A stretch of DNA of 21,555 bases, taken from a virus. Positions 7,592-21,500 of the stretch are shown here, one piece after another. Positions within the stretch are counted from its first letter, which is position 1, and every line of letters starts with the position of its first letter. The notes beneath the pieces were generated by a model. It was not told the DNA's origin, made no database searches, and saw only the letters and a program-made list of their open reading frames with translations. The stretch lies in IMG/VR virus record IMGVR_UViG_3300009374_000044, positions 1 through 21,555 of that record, one strand, 5' to 3'. Made by a program: the position numbers and the translations under genes.

Positions 7592-7665
7592 GTGTCGATG
7601 GCCGAGTGGTTAGGCAATGGTCTGCAAAACCATTTAGGTCGGTTCGATTCCGACTCGACACTCCA
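7592..7665 (+). tRNA. tRNA-Cys (GCA)
   Basis: A complete cloverleaf is visible: acceptor GTGTCGA/TCGACAC, D arm GCC/GGC around GAGTGGTTA, anticodon stem ATGGT/ACCAT with loop CTGCAAA (anticodon GCA at 7624-7626), T arm GTCGG/CCGAC with loop TTCGATT, discriminator T, and an encoded CCA. It reads the Cys codons UGC and UGU. It is the only tRNA gene in the window and lies just upstream of promoter P5. The window encodes several Cys-rich small proteins and a CCA-adding-enzyme homologue, so tRNA supply may be under selection. Confidence 0.95.
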
Positions 7666-13264: not shown

Positions 13265-13912
13265 TTGTTTGTATATATTACTACAAATTTATTGAATGAC
13301 AAGAAATATATTGGAATGTGCAGTAGGGATGATAGTGAATATTTAGGCAGTGGTATTCTTTTGAAACAAGCAATTCAAAAATATGGGAAAGAAAATTTCA
13401 AAAGAGAGATACTAGAAATTTGCTCTACCATTCAAGATTTAGAAAAAGCTGAAAGGCATTGGATTGATAAATTTGATGCTGTAAGTCGTGATGAGTTTTA
13501 TAATTTGATAGATGGGGGAAGAGGTGGTAATTCAAACTATCTAAAAAAATATTGGAATTCCATGACAGAGGGTGAAAGGAAAATGGCTAGGAATTGGGGC
13601 AGAAAAACAGTTGTTGATGGTGAACACAATCCAATGTTTAACAAGAAACACACGGATGAAACAAAAAGAAAAATTGGCGCCAAAAGTGTAAATAGGAATT
13701 GGGGTAGGAAAACACCTGTTGATGGGGCAAACAATCCAAGAGCTAAAAAGGTTCAATTGTCTCTTCCCAATGGAAATATCATGATTTTTGATTGTATAAA
13801 AGACATTTCTGATTATTTTTCTATACCATTTTCCACAACGAAGAGTATAAAGAATAAACCGCCCGTAAGCAACAAATCCAAATATTACGGATGGAAAATA
13901 ACTGAATGCTAA
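13265..13912 (+). CDS. GIY-YIG homing endonuclease with NUMOD motifs
   Basis: 215 residues from a TTG start with GAGGT eight bases upstream. The N-terminal nuclease has FVYITTNLLNDKKYIG (the GIY part is FVY, the YIG part intact), YGKENFKREILE, a probable catalytic Glu in EKAERHWIDKF, and YNLIDGGRGGN. Next is a NUMOD3-type DNA-binding motif, HNPMFNKKHTDETKRKI, and a C-terminal NUMOD1-like segment (FDCIKDISDYFSI to KYYGWKI). Such enzymes cut DNA lacking the insertion and spread by repair. Its stop overlaps the ATG of the next leader-bearing gene, and a matching leader lies just upstream, so it sits between two similar leaders. Confidence 0.85.
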   Translation: MFVYITTNLLNDKKYIGMCSRDDSEYLGSGILLKQAIQKYGKENFKREILEICSTIQDLEKAERHWIDKFDAVSRDEFYNLIDGGRGGNSNYLKKYWNSMTEGERKMARNWGRKTVVDGEHNPMFNKKHTDETKRKIGAKSVNRNWGRKTPVDGANNPRAKKVQLSLPNGNIMIFDCIKDISDYFSIPFSTTKSIKNKPPVSNKSKYYGWKITEC

Positions 13913-14001
13913 CTTTCAAACAGTTTACAAAGGAGATATATCAAGGTGTAGGTCTTTCTTTGCTAGAGGCAAAGGAAGGTAAAAACTTACACCTTGAGTG
14001 A
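13906..14001 (+). CDS. Leader ORF of the ligase-like gene, split off by a frame break (31 aa)
   Basis: The ATG overlaps the endonuclease stop (ATGCTAA). It encodes MLTFKQFTKEIYQGVG and continues to GKNLHLE, then TGA. In related phage proteins, as I remember them, NLHLE runs straight into HLEDE. Here the HLEDE part continues in the -1 frame after eight extra bases (TGACTGAG), from GTG 13998 in the gene downstream. So this is the natural N-terminus of that protein, now either separately translated and coupled (GTGA overlap) or broken. Confidence 0.55.
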   Translation: MLTFKQFTKEIYQGVGLSLLEAKEGKNLHLE

Positions 14002-15170
14002 CTGAGCACCTTGAAGATGAAGTTCTGAATAATGGTATCAATGGAACAAGAGGTGCAATCAACTTCTTACGTTCTCTCAGAGATATGCTTGCAGGAAGCA
14101 CAAAGTCTAGTGTCAATGTGACTGTTAAATGGGATGGTGCTCCTGCAATATTTGCAGGGATTAATCCAGAGAATGATAAGTTCTTTGTAGGAACAAAGGG
14201 TGTGTTTAATGTAAACCCTAAAGTCAACTATACAAATGCAGACATTGATGCAAATCATTCATCGTCAGGTCTTAATTCCAAACTCAAAGTTGCACTTAAA
14301 TACTTACCAAAATTAGGAATCAAAGATGTTCTCCAAGGCGATATGTTATTCACTCAAGATGATTTGTCTACGGAGACAATAGATGGTAAATCGTATCTCA
14401 CCTTCCAGCCCAACACAATCGTATACGCAGTTCCAAAAGAAAGTTCCAGTAAAATCAAGAAAGCGAAAATGGGTATTGTCTGGCATACCACTTACACAGG
14501 AGAGAAACTTGAAGATATGCGTGCCACTTTCGGTGCTAATATAAGTGGGTTGAGAAAAACGGACGATGTATATTTTACAGATGCAGATTACAGAGACACT
14601 TCTGGGACAGTCAATTTCAACAAAGCGGAAACTGCATCAATCACAAAAGTTCTATCTTCCGCTGGTAAAAAGTTTCGTGAACTGAAATCAACATTTATGA
14701 ATGAACTGATGAATGACAACAACCTTCTCATCTTGGTAAAGACATTCAACAACGTCAAAGTCAGAGAAGGACAAAAGATTTCTAATACAACGAAACACAC
14801 AGGAGAGATGATTAAGTACATCAATGCTAAGTTGCAGAAAGACATTGATAAGATTAAGACAGAAAAGAACAAAGAGATTAAGACAAAAAACAAGAACGAG
14901 TTGATTTCTTACATCACCAAGAACAGAGTCAATTTCAAGAACATCTTTGATATGCAGAACTTGTTGGTGGATGCCAAGAATATGGTGATACGCAAACTTG
15001 AAAAAGCAAAAGGTGCAATGGATACTTTCATACGGACAGAGAATGGATATCGTGTGACTGCACCAGAGGGTTTTGTTGCAATTGACCGAATGGGTGATGC
15101 TGTCAAATTGGTTGACCGCCTTGAGTTTTCAAGAGCTAACTTTAATGCTGCGAAAGCGTGGGATAAGTAA
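13998..15170 (+). CDS. Conserved T4-like phage protein with ligase-superfamily motifs (390 aa)
   Basis: I recall this as a cyanophage/pelagiphage family, possibly the one called DUF6267. VTVKWDGAPAIFAG (Lys44-Gly47) fits motif I (KxDG) of covalent nucleotidyltransferases such as RNA and DNA ligases, VLQGDMLF (~111-118) fits motif III, and PEGFVAIDRMG then VKLVDR (Glu357-Lys370) fits motifs IV-V. That order and spacing suggest an RNA or DNA ligase-like or capping-like enzyme using Lys44 as the adenylate site. The GTG start overlaps the TGA of the leader ORF; the true ancestral start is 13906. A long Lys-rich helical insert (~270-325) is present. Catalytic function is inferred, not shown. Confidence 0.65.
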   Translation: MTEHLEDEVLNNGINGTRGAINFLRSLRDMLAGSTKSSVNVTVKWDGAPAIFAGINPENDKFFVGTKGVFNVNPKVNYTNADIDANHSSSGLNSKLKVALKYLPKLGIKDVLQGDMLFTQDDLSTETIDGKSYLTFQPNTIVYAVPKESSSKIKKAKMGIVWHTTYTGEKLEDMRATFGANISGLRKTDDVYFTDADYRDTSGTVNFNKAETASITKVLSSAGKKFRELKSTFMNELMNDNNLLILVKTFNNVKVREGQKISNTTKHTGEMIKYINAKLQKDIDKIKTEKNKEIKTKNKNELISYITKNRVNFKNIFDMQNLLVDAKNMVIRKLEKAKGAMDTFIRTENGYRVTAPEGFVAIDRMGDAVKLVDRLEFSRANFNAAKAWDK

Positions 15171-16202
15171 ATGAGTAAAACATACAGAGAATTTATCACA
15201 GAACAAAAGGGTGCATCGGCGGTATTCACGTTTGGTCGATTTAATCCCCCAACAATCGGTCATGAAAAACTTCTCAAAGTGTTAGGGAATGCAGCTCAGA
15301 AAGAAAGAGGTATGAATTTTGTGAACGTTGCTCACGTTTATACGTTCATGAGTCATTCACAAGACAAAAAGAAAAACCCTTTGAGTCATGACCAAAAGAT
15401 GATGTTTATGAAACTGATGTTTCCAAAACATCGTCAGACATTTGTTAAGTCAAAGGCACGAAATGCACTTGAAGCACTCGTTCAGTTGCACGATATGAAA
15501 AAATACTCAAGAGCAGTTATGGTAGTTGGAAGTGATAGAGTTTCAGATTTTAATACTCTCCTGAACAGATATAATGGAGTAAAATCAAAACACGGATTAT
15601 ATCAGTTTGACGAAATCAAAGTGATTTCTGCTGGAGAACGTGATCCAGATGCTGAAGGTGTAGAAGGCATGTCTGCATCCAAGATGAGAGCCGCAGTTGC
15701 AGATGGAAACTACGATGTTTTTAAGATGGGAATCCCTGCAAGTGTATCAGAAAAAGATTGCAAGAAACTTTACGATGCTGTTGCAAAAGGTATGGGTGTA
15801 AGTAGTGTAAAAGAAGAGATGGATGAATACGAAGATTTTGAGATGGAACTTTATGAAGCACTTACTCCTGCACAACGAAGAAAGATGGCAATGAGAATGA
15901 AGATTCAAGCAAAACGCCCAGGGTTTATTCGTAAGAGAGAGATTTCTATGAAGAAAGCTGCGACAAAAGGAAAACTTGATAGTCGTGCAAGAAAGGCTGC
16001 AATCAATATGGTTATCAAAAGGTTCTTTCCAAAACTCAAAAAGAAATCTCGCTCAGAACTTTCTTATGCAGAACGTGGTAAGATTTCGGACATCGTAAAA
16101 AAGAAATCAAAAGTAATTGCAAGGTTCGCTAAACGTCTTGTCAAGGATAAACGAAAACAAGATGTAGAACGGAGAAGAAATCGAAATAAGAAGAAGGACT
16201 AG
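15171..16202 (+). CDS. Nucleotidyltransferase (TxGH type) with capsid-targeting-like leader and basic tail
   Basis: 343 residues. The leader MSKTYREFITE (1-11) is nearly that of T4 internal proteins. Then comes a cytidylyl/adenylyltransferase domain: FTFGRFNPPTIGH (19-31, TxGH loop), VVGSDRVSDF (~118-127) and GMSASKMRAAV (~166-176, the ISSTxxR-type motif). Such domains join a nucleotide to a phosphate-containing partner; nicotinamide-mononucleotide adenylyltransferase is one relative. The C-terminal ~110 residues are rich in Lys/Arg (RRKMAMRMKIQAKRPGF and similar), fit to bind DNA. An LYE|ALTP site at ~230 could be a second cleavage point. It starts right after the stop of the ligase-like gene. 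Confidence 0.78.
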   Translation: MSKTYREFITEQKGASAVFTFGRFNPPTIGHEKLLKVLGNAAQKERGMNFVNVAHVYTFMSHSQDKKKNPLSHDQKMMFMKLMFPKHRQTFVKSKARNALEALVQLHDMKKYSRAVMVVGSDRVSDFNTLLNRYNGVKSKHGLYQFDEIKVISAGERDPDAEGVEGMSASKMRAAVADGNYDVFKMGIPASVSEKDCKKLYDAVAKGMGVSSVKEEMDEYEDFEMELYEALTPAQRRKMAMRMKIQAKRPGFIRKREISMKKAATKGKLDSRARKAAINMVIKRFFPKLKKKSRSELSYAERGKISDIVKKKSKVIARFAKRLVKDKRKQDVERRRNRNKKKD

Positions 16203-18378: not shown

Positions 18379-18402
18379 AAAACCTTGGAAGGAAATAGAA
18401 TA

Positions 18403-18930
18403 ATGGCCAGCATGAATGCTGCGTTTTGGATCAATCCAACAGGAAAAATTTATAGAGTTGGAAAAAATCATATTTCTGATGTTATTAAATATCCTAAAAA
18501 ATTTGGTTTGACGTTACAAGACATTCAAAAAGTTTTTGATAAACATAATGAACCATTAGGACTTGAAGGGAAAGCAAGAGAAGAAATTTTATTGAATCTT
18601 TTCAAAAAAAATTATATACGTATCCGAAAATACAAGAATTTAGGATATACGGTTAATGTCAAGAAATTGGCCGGAAAGACGAAAAAATATGTGTATGATT
18701 GGGTAGAGAAACTTTTAGGAACTGGTATAGAGGGTGAAAAAGATTATACTACTACACCTGTTTATTTTGATGCTGCAGACAAAAGTTATTCACCAACAAC
18801 TTTGGGGGATATTCAAAAAGATATTTCGGTTATGGAATCGAATCAACACGAACTTGTTGAATGTCATGTTTCACAATGGGAAGATGTAAAAATAAAGAGG
18901 TTTGAGGAATTTATAAATGAAACCATTTAA
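18403..18930 (+). CDS. Conserved T4-like marine phage protein of unknown function (175 aa)
   Basis: ATG with GGAAGGAAATAG upstream. Starts ASMNAAFWINPTGKIYRVG, NHISDVIKYPKKFGLT; a second region reads GKAREEILLNLFKKNYIRIR and KYVYDWVEKLLGTG. I recall this combination (N-A-x-F-W-x-N-P, F-G-L-T, G-K-A-R-E-E-I) in cyanophage and pelagiphage genomes without a known role. The C-terminal end, KRFEEFINETI, resembles the cargo leader motif but at the wrong end. It overlaps the CCA-enzyme gene by 14 bases. Confidence 0.65.
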   Translation: MASMNAAFWINPTGKIYRVGKNHISDVIKYPKKFGLTLQDIQKVFDKHNEPLGLEGKAREEILLNLFKKNYIRIRKYKNLGYTVNVKKLAGKTKKYVYDWVEKLLGTGIEGEKDYTTTPVYFDAADKSYSPTTLGDIQKDISVMESNQHELVECHVSQWEDVKIKRFEEFINETI

Positions 18931-20554
18931 AAAATTCTTATATGAAAGTCAACTCGCAACTGCATTGTCAGTAGATGTTAGGGATGCAATCAAAAACAAG
19001 GGTGGAAAAATTTATCAGATTGGTGGTGCCGTTAGAGATGAGATTCTTGGGAAAGTATCAAAGGATTTAGACCTTCTGATTGTTGGATTAGAATTAAATG
19101 AGTTGGGAAGAATTCTGAAGCCATTCGGCAAGATCAATCTTGTCGGAAAATCTTTTGGTATACTCAAATTTACACCGAAGGGTAGTTCCGAAGAGATTGA
19201 TATTTCTGTCCCAAGAGTGGATTCCAAAAGCACAGGAAAAGGACATAAAGATTTTGAAGTTAAGTTAGGTAAAGGTATTTCTTTACAACAAGATCAATTA
19301 CGAAGAGATTTTTGGATTAATGCACTTGCAAAAGATATTGATACAGGGGAAGTAATAGATGTAGAACGTAAGGGAATGACGGATATCAAAAATAAAGAAA
19401 TCCGTATGATAAGTCCAGTTGCATTTGAAGAAGATCCATTGAGGATGTTACGTGCGGTTCAGTTTGCAGCCCGATTTGGTTTCAAAATAGAGAAAGAAAC
19501 ATTTAAGGAGATACAGAAAAACGCAAGAACAATTTCTACCATTTCTGCTGAGAGATTTCAAGAAGAGTTTCGTAAAATGTTTACTAAAGCAAAGAAACCT
19601 AGTATCGGAATCAAATTGTTATTTGCAACAGGCCTGATGGATTTTATTCTACCACAGTCAAATTTGAGAAATATAGATTTGACTACTATAGATAAACTTG
19701 ACAAGAAAGCGTTCCCTGCATTTATGGGAATAATTTTAAATGGGTATGGTTCAAATGCAGGAAAAGAAATTGCAAGTGTGATGAGATTATCAAATGCAGA
19801 TTCAGATGCAGTTCAGGCAGTAGTTTCATATGCATCTAAAGCATCATTTTTAGATAGAGATGATTTTAAATTAGTCAGGTTTTTAAAGAATGTAAATGAA
19901 AAAGGAATTCAAAATATAGATGCATATTTGTCTGCCAAGAGAAGACCAACTTTGTCAAGCAAACTCAAGAGGATGGAAGTCATTTCTGTCAAAGAATTAT
20001 CAATTGGTGGTAGAGATTTGTTGAAATTAGGAATGAAAGGAAAACAGGTCGGTGATGCACTTGAGTTTGCATTTGAATTTGCAGTTAGAAATGGGAGAAA
20101 CAATAAGTCAGAATTGTTAGATGTTATTAAAAACAAATATGGAATGACAGAACAAGTAGAAATAGAAGATATTTTGAAGTATTATCCAAGTCCTAGAGAA
20201 GTCAAGTATATCAGATCGGTTAGACATAAGTTGATTAAGAAGAATCCAGATATGAAACCGATTGGAGATGACAAGTTACACGTTACGCTTGCATCTGGGC
20301 CTGGGTGGAAAAAGATAAAGTCGGACTTTGGAGATGTGAAATTAAATAATCCAGATTTTCAGTTAGAGTTTGAAGATCCAAAGAAAGTTGAATCATCTGG
20401 TAGAGTTTCGTGGTATATGAAAGTTAAACAACAAAGACAACTCAAGGATTATGTCACAGATTTACTTCAATCAGATCCAGACCCGAAAAGATTGTTTCAT
20501 GTGTCGATTGCAAATAAGACAGGAAAAATAGGAGATTCAGTTGCAAACATTTAA
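18917..20554 (+). CDS. CCA-adding-enzyme homologue fused to a 2H-phosphoesterase-like domain, with leader
   Basis: 545 residues in three parts. (1) Leader MKPFKKFLYESQ with an L-x-E site. (2) Class II nucleotidyltransferase: YQIGGAVRDEILG (36-41 GGxVRD), SKDLDLLIVG (catalytic Asp50, Asp52), QLRRDFWINALAKD, then EEDPLRMLRAVQFAARFGF (~170-188), as in bacterial CCA-adding enzymes and poly(A) polymerases. It adds or repairs the CCA end of tRNA. (3) C-terminal ~110 residues with two H-x-T/S motifs, KLHVTLAS (His455, Thr457) and FHVSIANKTG (His528, Ser530), the mark of 2H phosphoesterases, which open 2',3'-cyclic phosphates. Bacterial CCA enzymes use an HD domain for this instead. The fusion is unusual. 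Whether it adds CCA or poly(A) is not certain. Confidence 0.85.
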   Translation: MKPFKKFLYESQLATALSVDVRDAIKNKGGKIYQIGGAVRDEILGKVSKDLDLLIVGLELNELGRILKPFGKINLVGKSFGILKFTPKGSSEEIDISVPRVDSKSTGKGHKDFEVKLGKGISLQQDQLRRDFWINALAKDIDTGEVIDVERKGMTDIKNKEIRMISPVAFEEDPLRMLRAVQFAARFGFKIEKETFKEIQKNARTISTISAERFQEEFRKMFTKAKKPSIGIKLLFATGLMDFILPQSNLRNIDLTTIDKLDKKAFPAFMGIILNGYGSNAGKEIASVMRLSNADSDAVQAVVSYASKASFLDRDDFKLVRFLKNVNEKGIQNIDAYLSAKRRPTLSSKLKRMEVISVKELSIGGRDLLKLGMKGKQVGDALEFAFEFAVRNGRNNKSELLDVIKNKYGMTEQVEIEDILKYYPSPREVKYIRSVRHKLIKKNPDMKPIGDDKLHVTLASGPGWKKIKSDFGDVKLNNPDFQLEFEDPKKVESSGRVSWYMKVKQQRQLKDYVTDLLQSDPDPKRLFHVSIANKTGKIGDSVANI

Positions 20555-21500
20555 ACAATATTTAAAAGAACGAGCTCCAGCGTGGCAAGAAAGTTTGTCT
20601 ACTATGTTATTTGAATTACCAAGACAATCTATAGATGATGTGGTGATACCATTAGGTTCTTCAATAATTGAAAGATTGTGGCCTGATAAAATAAGGTCTA
20701 CTGTATTTCATCTTACTGATTATGAAGGGATAGAAGGATTGAAAAAGATGCAGAAATCAAAAAAATCAATATCTGCATTTTTTAATATGGACAGTTTTCT
20801 TATAGACGATGGTATTCGGACTGAAGGTGGTTATGTTGTAGAGTTATCTGCCGATATTCTTGTTTCTTCACCAGATGACCTTGCCACTATGGTAGACAAA
20901 TCGGGTAGAAGATATATTATCTTTCAAAGGCTTAGACAAGGTTATGAAGGTGGAGGATTGGGAGGTGGCACAAAATTGGCAGGAATGAGAAGAGATATAA
21001 CCAATATGTTTAAGAATCTTGTTAATCAATATGACGAATTTATAGAACCAGAAGATATTGAAGCTGCATTAGGTATAAAGATAGAAGTCAATGGTTTTGA
21101 CAAGGCAATGAAAGATTTTAAAAAAAATCCATTTCTTGCATGGAGAGTGATAGGTAATAGTATAAGAAAAATATCACGCCCTGGTTTCGTTTTTTCTATG
21201 GCCATTAAAGATTATTTGGATAGAATGGAAAAAATTATGAAGAAAAATTCCAGACAACTAGGTTCTTTATTTTATGATTATGCTAAAAATAAGACATTTA
21301 GATACGAAAAAGGTATAGGACAAACACCTTGGGATGAATTAGTGGTTAATAATTTTACAATCAATAAGATACACGTTGGCCCAATGTTTTATGTTGATTT
21401 CAAAGATGATACTGAAATTGAAGGATTTCCAATTATGGTATGGAAAGATTCTGAATCATTAATACGACATATTCAAAAAATAACTAAGATAAAAAAATGA
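20541..21500 (+). CDS. Large leader-bearing phage protein, function unknown (319 aa)
   Basis: TTG start with AGGAGATTCAG upstream, overlapping the CCA-enzyme gene by 14 bases. The leader MQTFKQYLKERAP has an L-x-E site. The body includes STVFHLTDYEGIEGLKKMQK, SKKSISAFFNMDSF, GYVVELSADILVS, DKSGRRYIIFQRLRQ, a Gly-rich loop, and a C-terminal VNNFTINKIHVGP. I recall close relatives in cyanophages with no function. The order F-H-x-T, S-I-S, then V-x-E loosely recalls ADP-ribosyltransferase folds such as T4 Alt, which is also a capsid protein, but the match is weak. Confidence 0.65.
   Translation: MQTFKQYLKERAPAWQESLSTMLFELPRQSIDDVVIPLGSSIIERLWPDKIRSTVFHLTDYEGIEGLKKMQKSKKSISAFFNMDSFLIDDGIRTEGGYVVELSADILVSSPDDLATMVDKSGRRYIIFQRLRQGYEGGGLGGGTKLAGMRRDITNMFKNLVNQYDEFIEPEDIEAALGIKIEVNGFDKAMKDFKKNPFLAWRVIGNSIRKISRPGFVFSMAIKDYLDRMEKIMKKNSRQLGSLFYDYAKNKTFRYEKGIGQTPWDELVVNNFTINKIHVGPMFYVDFKDDTEIEGFPIMVWKDSESLIRHIQKITKIKK

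Follow-up and report, generated by a model that had tools for sequence, protein, structure and literature searches.

A phage CCA-family nucleotidyltransferase joined to a 2H phosphoesterase domain and bearing a T4-type capsid leader, possibly an injected tRNA-end repair enzyme

We found that a marine T4-like phage encodes a protein of 545 residues in which a capsid-targeting leader of the T4 type is followed by a class II CCA-family nucleotidyltransferase (residues ~21-406) and then by a 2H phosphoesterase domain (residues ~413-545). The parts are known; their combination is new, conserved, and testable, and no published report of a CCA-2H fusion was found in the literature searched. The gene lies in the window, by which we mean the whole stretch of DNA analyzed, a 21.5 kb fragment of a virus record (Table 1). 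A second IMG/VR viral contig (L001) carries an identical copy, which rules out an assembly accident. Selection on both domains is purifying (dN/dS 0.12-0.38, where computable). The family matches, invariant motifs, fold, and leader statistics given below argue that neither the leader, the nucleotidyltransferase, nor the 2H domain is a chance pattern. Because the gene bears the tag with which T4 loads its head, a tRNA-end repair enzyme is probably injected along with the phage DNA. We lean, with slightly better than even confidence, towards a virion-packaged tRNA 3'-end repair protein that would be loaded through its leader and injected, whereupon the 2H domain would open cyclic phosphates and the CCA tail would be rebuilt.

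Table 1. Positions in the window of the CCA-2H gene, its parts, and leader-tagged neighbors
Feature	Position	Strand	Remarks
CCA-2H open reading frame	18917-20554	+	ATG start, 545 aa
Capsid-targeting leader MKPFKKFLYE, residues 1-10	18917..18946	+	T4 IPII/IPIII pattern; predicted prohead-protease site between LYE and S
CCA-family class II tRNA nucleotidyltransferase, residues about 11-406	18947..20134	+	Pfam, PHROG, NCBIfam, and PDB matches
Junction tripeptide M410-T-E412	20144..20152	+	Possible second prohead-protease site; [IM]xE in five fused lineages
2H phosphoesterase domain, residues 413-545	20153..20551	+	AF2 model, Foldseek, alignment
First catalytic motif H455-V-T457	20279..20287	+	H and T invariant, 22/22 relatives
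Second catalytic motif H528-V-S530	20498..20506	+	H and S invariant, 22/22 relatives
Next gene, leader-tagged (L/MQTFKQYLKE)	20541..21500	+	Overlaps end of 2H reading frame
HIGH-superfamily cytidylyltransferase-like protein, leader-tagged (MSKTYREFITE)	15171..16202	+	Same cargo class
DUF6267 protein	13998..15170	+	Leader-tagged in relatives; ligase-like motifs

All the motifs of class II CCA enzymes were present in the nucleotidyltransferase domain, namely GGAVRD (GG-x-VRD), DLD (D-x-D), RRDF, EDPLR (ED-x-x-R), and ERFQEE (ER-x-x-x-E). Pfam PolyA_pol matched residues 33-163 (2e-18) and PolyA_pol_RNAbd residues 188-247 (9e-17), PHROG 2244 (tRNA nucleotidyltransferase) matched residues 30-381 (1.5e-59), and the closest solved structure was the CCA-adding enzyme 6ibp (9.5e-22). 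A preliminary description, made by reading the DNA, had called this domain a class II nucleotidyltransferase, which these matches bear out; the positions it gave were also correct (GGAVRD at 36-41, D50/D52, EDPLR at 172-176, H455 in HVTL, and H528 in HVSI). Among NCBIfam models, all of them below their curated cut-offs, the CCA model PRK13299 came first (5.7e-41, residues 21-406) and the PcnB poly(A) polymerase followed behind (8e-33), and CCA-adding activity is likely on these grounds. The phage protein resembles the Bacillus-type CCA tRNA nucleotidyltransferases of PRK13299 in aligning with them at full length; unlike them, it scores below the curated cut-off and has an extra leader and a 2H domain. 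It also resembles E. coli Cca, which combines in one chain a class II tRNA nucleotidyltransferase and an HD domain with phosphodiesterase activity on 2',3'-cyclic phosphates (Yakunin 2004, as cited in PMC10673834). However, the phage protein is leader-tagged and phage-borne and has a 2H fold rather than the metal-dependent HD domain. No HD match was found in the CCA-2H protein, and this absence, together with the second, different 2H-type fusion described below, supports the earlier suggestion that another fold fills the HD role.

The C-terminal domain was covered by no family of Pfam, PHROGs, or NCBIfam above threshold. The AlphaFold2 model of this domain (pLDDT 84.6, pTM 0.78) was compared with the PDB by Foldseek, and 24 of the 24 best matches were 2H enzymes, including Acb1, a Burkholderia phage PDE, CPDase, LigT, Usb1, MHV ns2, and others. 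Among viral models (BFVD), the best match was a Swiss-Army-Knife 2H protein (1.4e-5). The predicted fold is clearly 2H, as the preliminary description had supposed and had proposed to check by structure prediction; the subfamily is not clear, because the TM-scores of the PDB matches were modest (0.36-0.51, normalized by query). In an alignment of 22 divergent relatives, down to about 30% identity, the H-x-T and H-x-S motifs were kept in every member, and R, N, D, and S were also kept around or after the second motif. Both histidines were conserved throughout; a fold other than 2H, or histidines that vary among homologs, would have refuted the preliminary description, and neither was observed. 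In fold and in its two H-x-[TS] motifs, the domain is like the known 2H phosphoesterases (LigT/ThpR, CPDase, Usb1, and Swiss-Army-Knife 2H); unlike them, it forms a sequence family outside the cut-offs of the three databases and is joined to a CCA enzyme. The nearest Pfam signal came from PF13563, the superfamily of 2'-5' RNA ligases (9/22 members, with 6e-4 for the best of them). A tblastn search against 50,697 isolate phage records returned no relative (one chance match), and searching PDB sequences with a profile built from the 2H alignment gave no credible match; only the comparison of folds succeeded. Separately, a Pfam TRI4_N match, which was weak, sub-threshold, and covered about 28 residues, was taken as chance.

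Since Acb1 was among the best structural matches, the substrate could be a signaling nucleotide. The 2H domain would then be an Acb1-like anti-signaling nuclease, acting on CBASS-type cyclic oligonucleotides or 2'-5' oligoadenylates and adjoining the CCA enzyme only as co-injected cargo. This is the chief alternative to the repair reading, and we consider it unlikely. The domain shares the 2H fold with the Acb1 anti-CBASS nuclease (T4 57B), which was the top PDB match by E-value; several Acb1 proteins ranked high in BFVD, leader-tagged 2H genes exist without CCA, and injection would suit early counter-defense. However, the base contact E141 and the lid residue W147 of Acb1 lie 28 and 34 residues past its second catalytic histidine, H113 (PMC9117128), and only 17 residues follow H528 here, so that the region holding both is missing. 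Similarity to the T4 Acb1 profile was also absent (hhalign probability 0.4%), and on these two counts we set aside membership of the Acb1 family. The fusion to a CCA enzyme is a further difference from Acb1, and the best viral fold match was the Swiss-Army-Knife protein, another point against this reading. RNA ends are favored as the substrate by the repeated link to CCA enzymes and by the CPD-like replacement in L012 (see below).

The leader MKPFKKFLYE fits MKTYQEFIAE of T4 IPII and IPIII (translated from NC_000866) at every patterned position, the two sharing M-K-x-aromatic-x-x-F-(I/L)-x-E, including the (I/L)xE prohead-protease site. In T4, the 10-residue leader directs proteins into the scaffold core and is then cut away by gp21 (PMC10229621), and the internal proteins, once injected, keep host restriction from acting (PMC12373910, PMC3012670). 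Equivalent leaders were borne by homologs of the CCA-2H protein. Across the leader-using contigs, the pattern stood at 35/788 gene starts versus 6/7312 internal start codons (P about 5e-30), and no gene start of the two CCA-only contigs G013 and G016 had it. Genes for a T4-type protease (PF03420, gp21) and capsid (PF07068, gp23) were found in the larger relatives G003 and G004, both of which have the fusion, and in G009; none of either type was found within the window, itself a fragment. The capsid leader claimed in the preliminary description thus genuinely corresponds to the T4 capsid-targeting sequence, and larger relatives have gp21 and gp23 homologs. If cargo has to withstand the prohead protease, few internal (I/L)xE sites are expected. 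Their frequency across 30 leader-tagged families was 0.77 of expectation, whereas the remaining ORFs of these contigs reached 1.17. No set among 5000 length-matched controls gave so low a value (Poisson P 4e-4), and control motifs showed no such difference. This depletion lends indirect support to the idea that leader-tagged proteins really meet the protease. The phage protein shares with T4 IPI-IPIII and Alt the 10-residue leader with its (I/L)xE cleavage site and would share with the internal proteins an injected counter-defense role. It differs from them in that the cargo is a putative RNA-repair enzyme with a second possible cleavage site that would split it.

These results bear on whether the protein is simply a CCA enzyme made late by the phage to mature or maintain tRNAs in the course of infection, with the leader and the 2H domain incidental. 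CCA enzymes are indeed common in phages (446 phage records matched), yet CCA is part of the sequence of all nine tRNA genes in the contigs examined, which can therefore mature without the enzyme. Moreover, the leader is kept in the CCA relatives of T4-like phages and is missing from the CCA-only group, and the 2H domain is under purifying selection with invariant active-site residues. We regard this explanation as very improbable. In the window itself, a tRNA-Cys gene at 7592-7665 encodes its own 3' CCA.

The same fusion, for which the preliminary description had proposed to search related phages, was found in L002-L006, L008, and L047, in addition to the window and L001. CCA and 2H occurred as adjacent separate genes in L009, L010, L011, L016, L052, L053, and L055-L057; in L052, L053, and L055-L057 the 2H gene had its own leader-like start, and in some split forms it had no leader. 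A 2H gene with its own leader and without an adjoining CCA gene was found in L023-L030, and 2H genes without a nearby CCA gene also in L064-L067, showing that 2H does not need CCA. CCA alone, without a leader, was found in L017-L021. In the gene tree the fused state needs at least two changes, and the order of fusion and separation is not settled by the tree. In L012-L015, the same leader-CCA protein carried a different C-terminal domain with HVTVAY and HITISH (two H-x-T motifs) and a weak match, just under the cut-off, to the fungal tRNA ligase CPD domain (PF08302, 1.4e-4). Homology of the L012 C terminus to the 2H domain of the window was unsupported (hhalign probability 0.5%), and we regard it rather as a distinct, putative 2H-type domain, judging by the PF08302 match and the two motifs. 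The fungal CPD domain is fused to a kinase and a ligase, whereas its counterpart here is joined to a CCA enzyme. That one CCA enzyme carries either of two distinct 2H-type domains speaks for a functional pairing, an end-healing partnership. CCA and 2H are linked in three ways (fused, adjacent, and as CCA with a CPD-like C terminus in L012-L015), a point in favor of the repair reading.

We also observed an (I/M)xE tripeptide between the domains in five of five fused lineages: MTE in the window, IRE in L002, IKE in L008, ITE in L047, and IKE in L012. As the lineages are related, these are not five independent events. The window copy has just two further [ILM]xE sites, one of them that of the leader. 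By blastn, similarity to the stand-alone leader-2H gene of L034 (85%) started at 20150, the codon of Glu412, and ended inside the start of the leader of the next gene. The 2H domain of the window was 80-87% identical to stand-alone copies and 59% identical to the 2H domain of L002, whereas the CCA part was 76% identical to L002; with the 2H domain nearer the stand-alone copies and the CCA part nearer L002, the 2H module was probably swapped at the leader boundary. The fusion may be a polyprotein that is cleaved within the prohead. The protease-like junction site, a point absent from the preliminary description, suggests that the virion may contain the CCA and 2H enzymes as separate proteins.

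Other leader-tagged cargo included, at L096:562-1755, a protein with a zeta/AAA_33-type kinase N-terminal to a HAD (NT5C-like) domain, which occurs in G004 alongside the CCA-2H fusion; T4 polynucleotide kinase-phosphatase has this domain order too. The AlphaFold2 model of the DUF6267 protein (pLDDT 82) had no significant ligase match, with DNA ligase IV and an RNA editing ligase among its weak Foldseek matches. Searches of the fusion-bearing contigs, which are fragments, yielded no canonical RNA ligase, the Rnl1 search having been run without a positive control; matches to RNA_ligase (PF09414) in G013-G016 lay within ORFs of 828-841 residues of CCA-only phages. The fusion could be a mere packaging convenience for two independent injected enzymes, with CCA acting on acceptor ends and 2H on other RNA ends, for instance healing anticodon breaks together with a leader-tagged kinase/phosphatase and an RNA ligase. 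Consistent with this are the (I/M)xE tripeptide between the domains of every fused lineage, the onset of DNA similarity to leader-2H genes at the junction Glu codon, the stand-alone and split 2H genes, and the kinase-HAD protein in a phage with the fusion. However, cleavage at the junction is predicted from sequence and DUF6267 is a candidate ligase, and we hold such a division of labor to be distinctly unlikely. A further reading is a capsid-borne polyprotein whose leader would be trimmed by the prohead protease, which would also cut at the conserved (I/M)xE junction and free a CCA-adding enzyme and a 2H phosphodiesterase in the head. The polyprotein would belong to a shuffling set of leader-tagged cargo (kinase-HAD phosphatase, 2H, CCA, DUF6267, and nucleotidylyltransferase), and the phage would thus inject a complete RNA-end repair kit ahead of the translation of any of its genes. 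This kit is attractive and unproven, and we put it forward as a doubtful possibility.

Several further observations concern the neighboring genes and similar cargo. The upstream gene (18385-18930) overlaps the start of the CCA-2H gene, and its C terminus, KRFEEFINETI, is a leader-like motif. The product of the next gene downstream had no family match; about 20 relatives occur near these genes, with conserved VFHxT...KKSISAFF and PDKTGRRW, and the family is possibly an ADP-ribosyltransferase-like enzyme. In DUF6267, the invariant KxDG (KWDG), EGFV, and KLVDR resemble motifs I, IV, and V of covalent nucleotidyltransferases (ligases). Compared with L026, a frame break at 13909-14010 (apparently about 8 extra bases, TGACTGAG) parts the DUF6267 leader from its body, which restarts in the window at a GTG; just upstream, at 13265-13912, lies an ORF that is GIY-YIG homing-endonuclease-like by its sequence. 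At L065:4288-6998, in a 191 kb T4-like contig, five consecutive genes have near-identical MExW-type leaders, and this run includes a HAD phosphatase adjoining a 2H protein. Two small leader-tagged proteins, L032:656-1249 (with a weak DUF3990 match only) and L053:342-770 (with no Pfam match), looked ADP-ribosyltransferase-like by eye, as for the injected T4 Alt. No protein of the window matched a PADLOC family.

From the family, fold, conservation, leader pattern, and gene association, we infer packaging, injection, catalysis, and substrate as follows for the tRNA 3'-end repair protein that we favor. The T4-type leader would place the precursor in the prohead scaffold, where the phage prohead protease would remove the leader after Glu10; through the second (I/M)xE site, the head may also come to contain the two enzymes as free products of the precursor. 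The protein would enter the host together with the DNA. There, judging from the two families, metal-independent nucleases would leave tRNA ends with 2',3'-cyclic phosphates for the 2H domain to open, after which the CCA tail would be rebuilt by the CCA-adding domain. A cut by a RuvC nuclease (e.g., Cas12a3) should leave 3'-OH ends, so that damage by Cas12a3 should need the CCA step only and no 2H step. Damage to the CCA of tRNA does occur in infected cells, as the Cas12a3 defense strips CCA tails (PMC12851939).

Phage-encoded CCA enzymes, 2H phosphoesterases, and RNA ligases are known already, as is the injection of anti-restriction proteins by T4, and earlier work has suggested roles for 2H domains of phages both in RNA repair and within injected proteins (PMC7824862, PMC9503650, PMC5512222). 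If our reading is true, an injected tRNA-end repair enzyme would join both themes as a translation-free counter to tRNA-destroying immunity, and translation-free repair would matter most then, because tRNA damage blocks the making of any repair protein. The CCA-2H fusion allows a direct test of RNA repair carried in the phage particle, and the leader is usable for finding other injected counter-defense enzymes in environmental phages.
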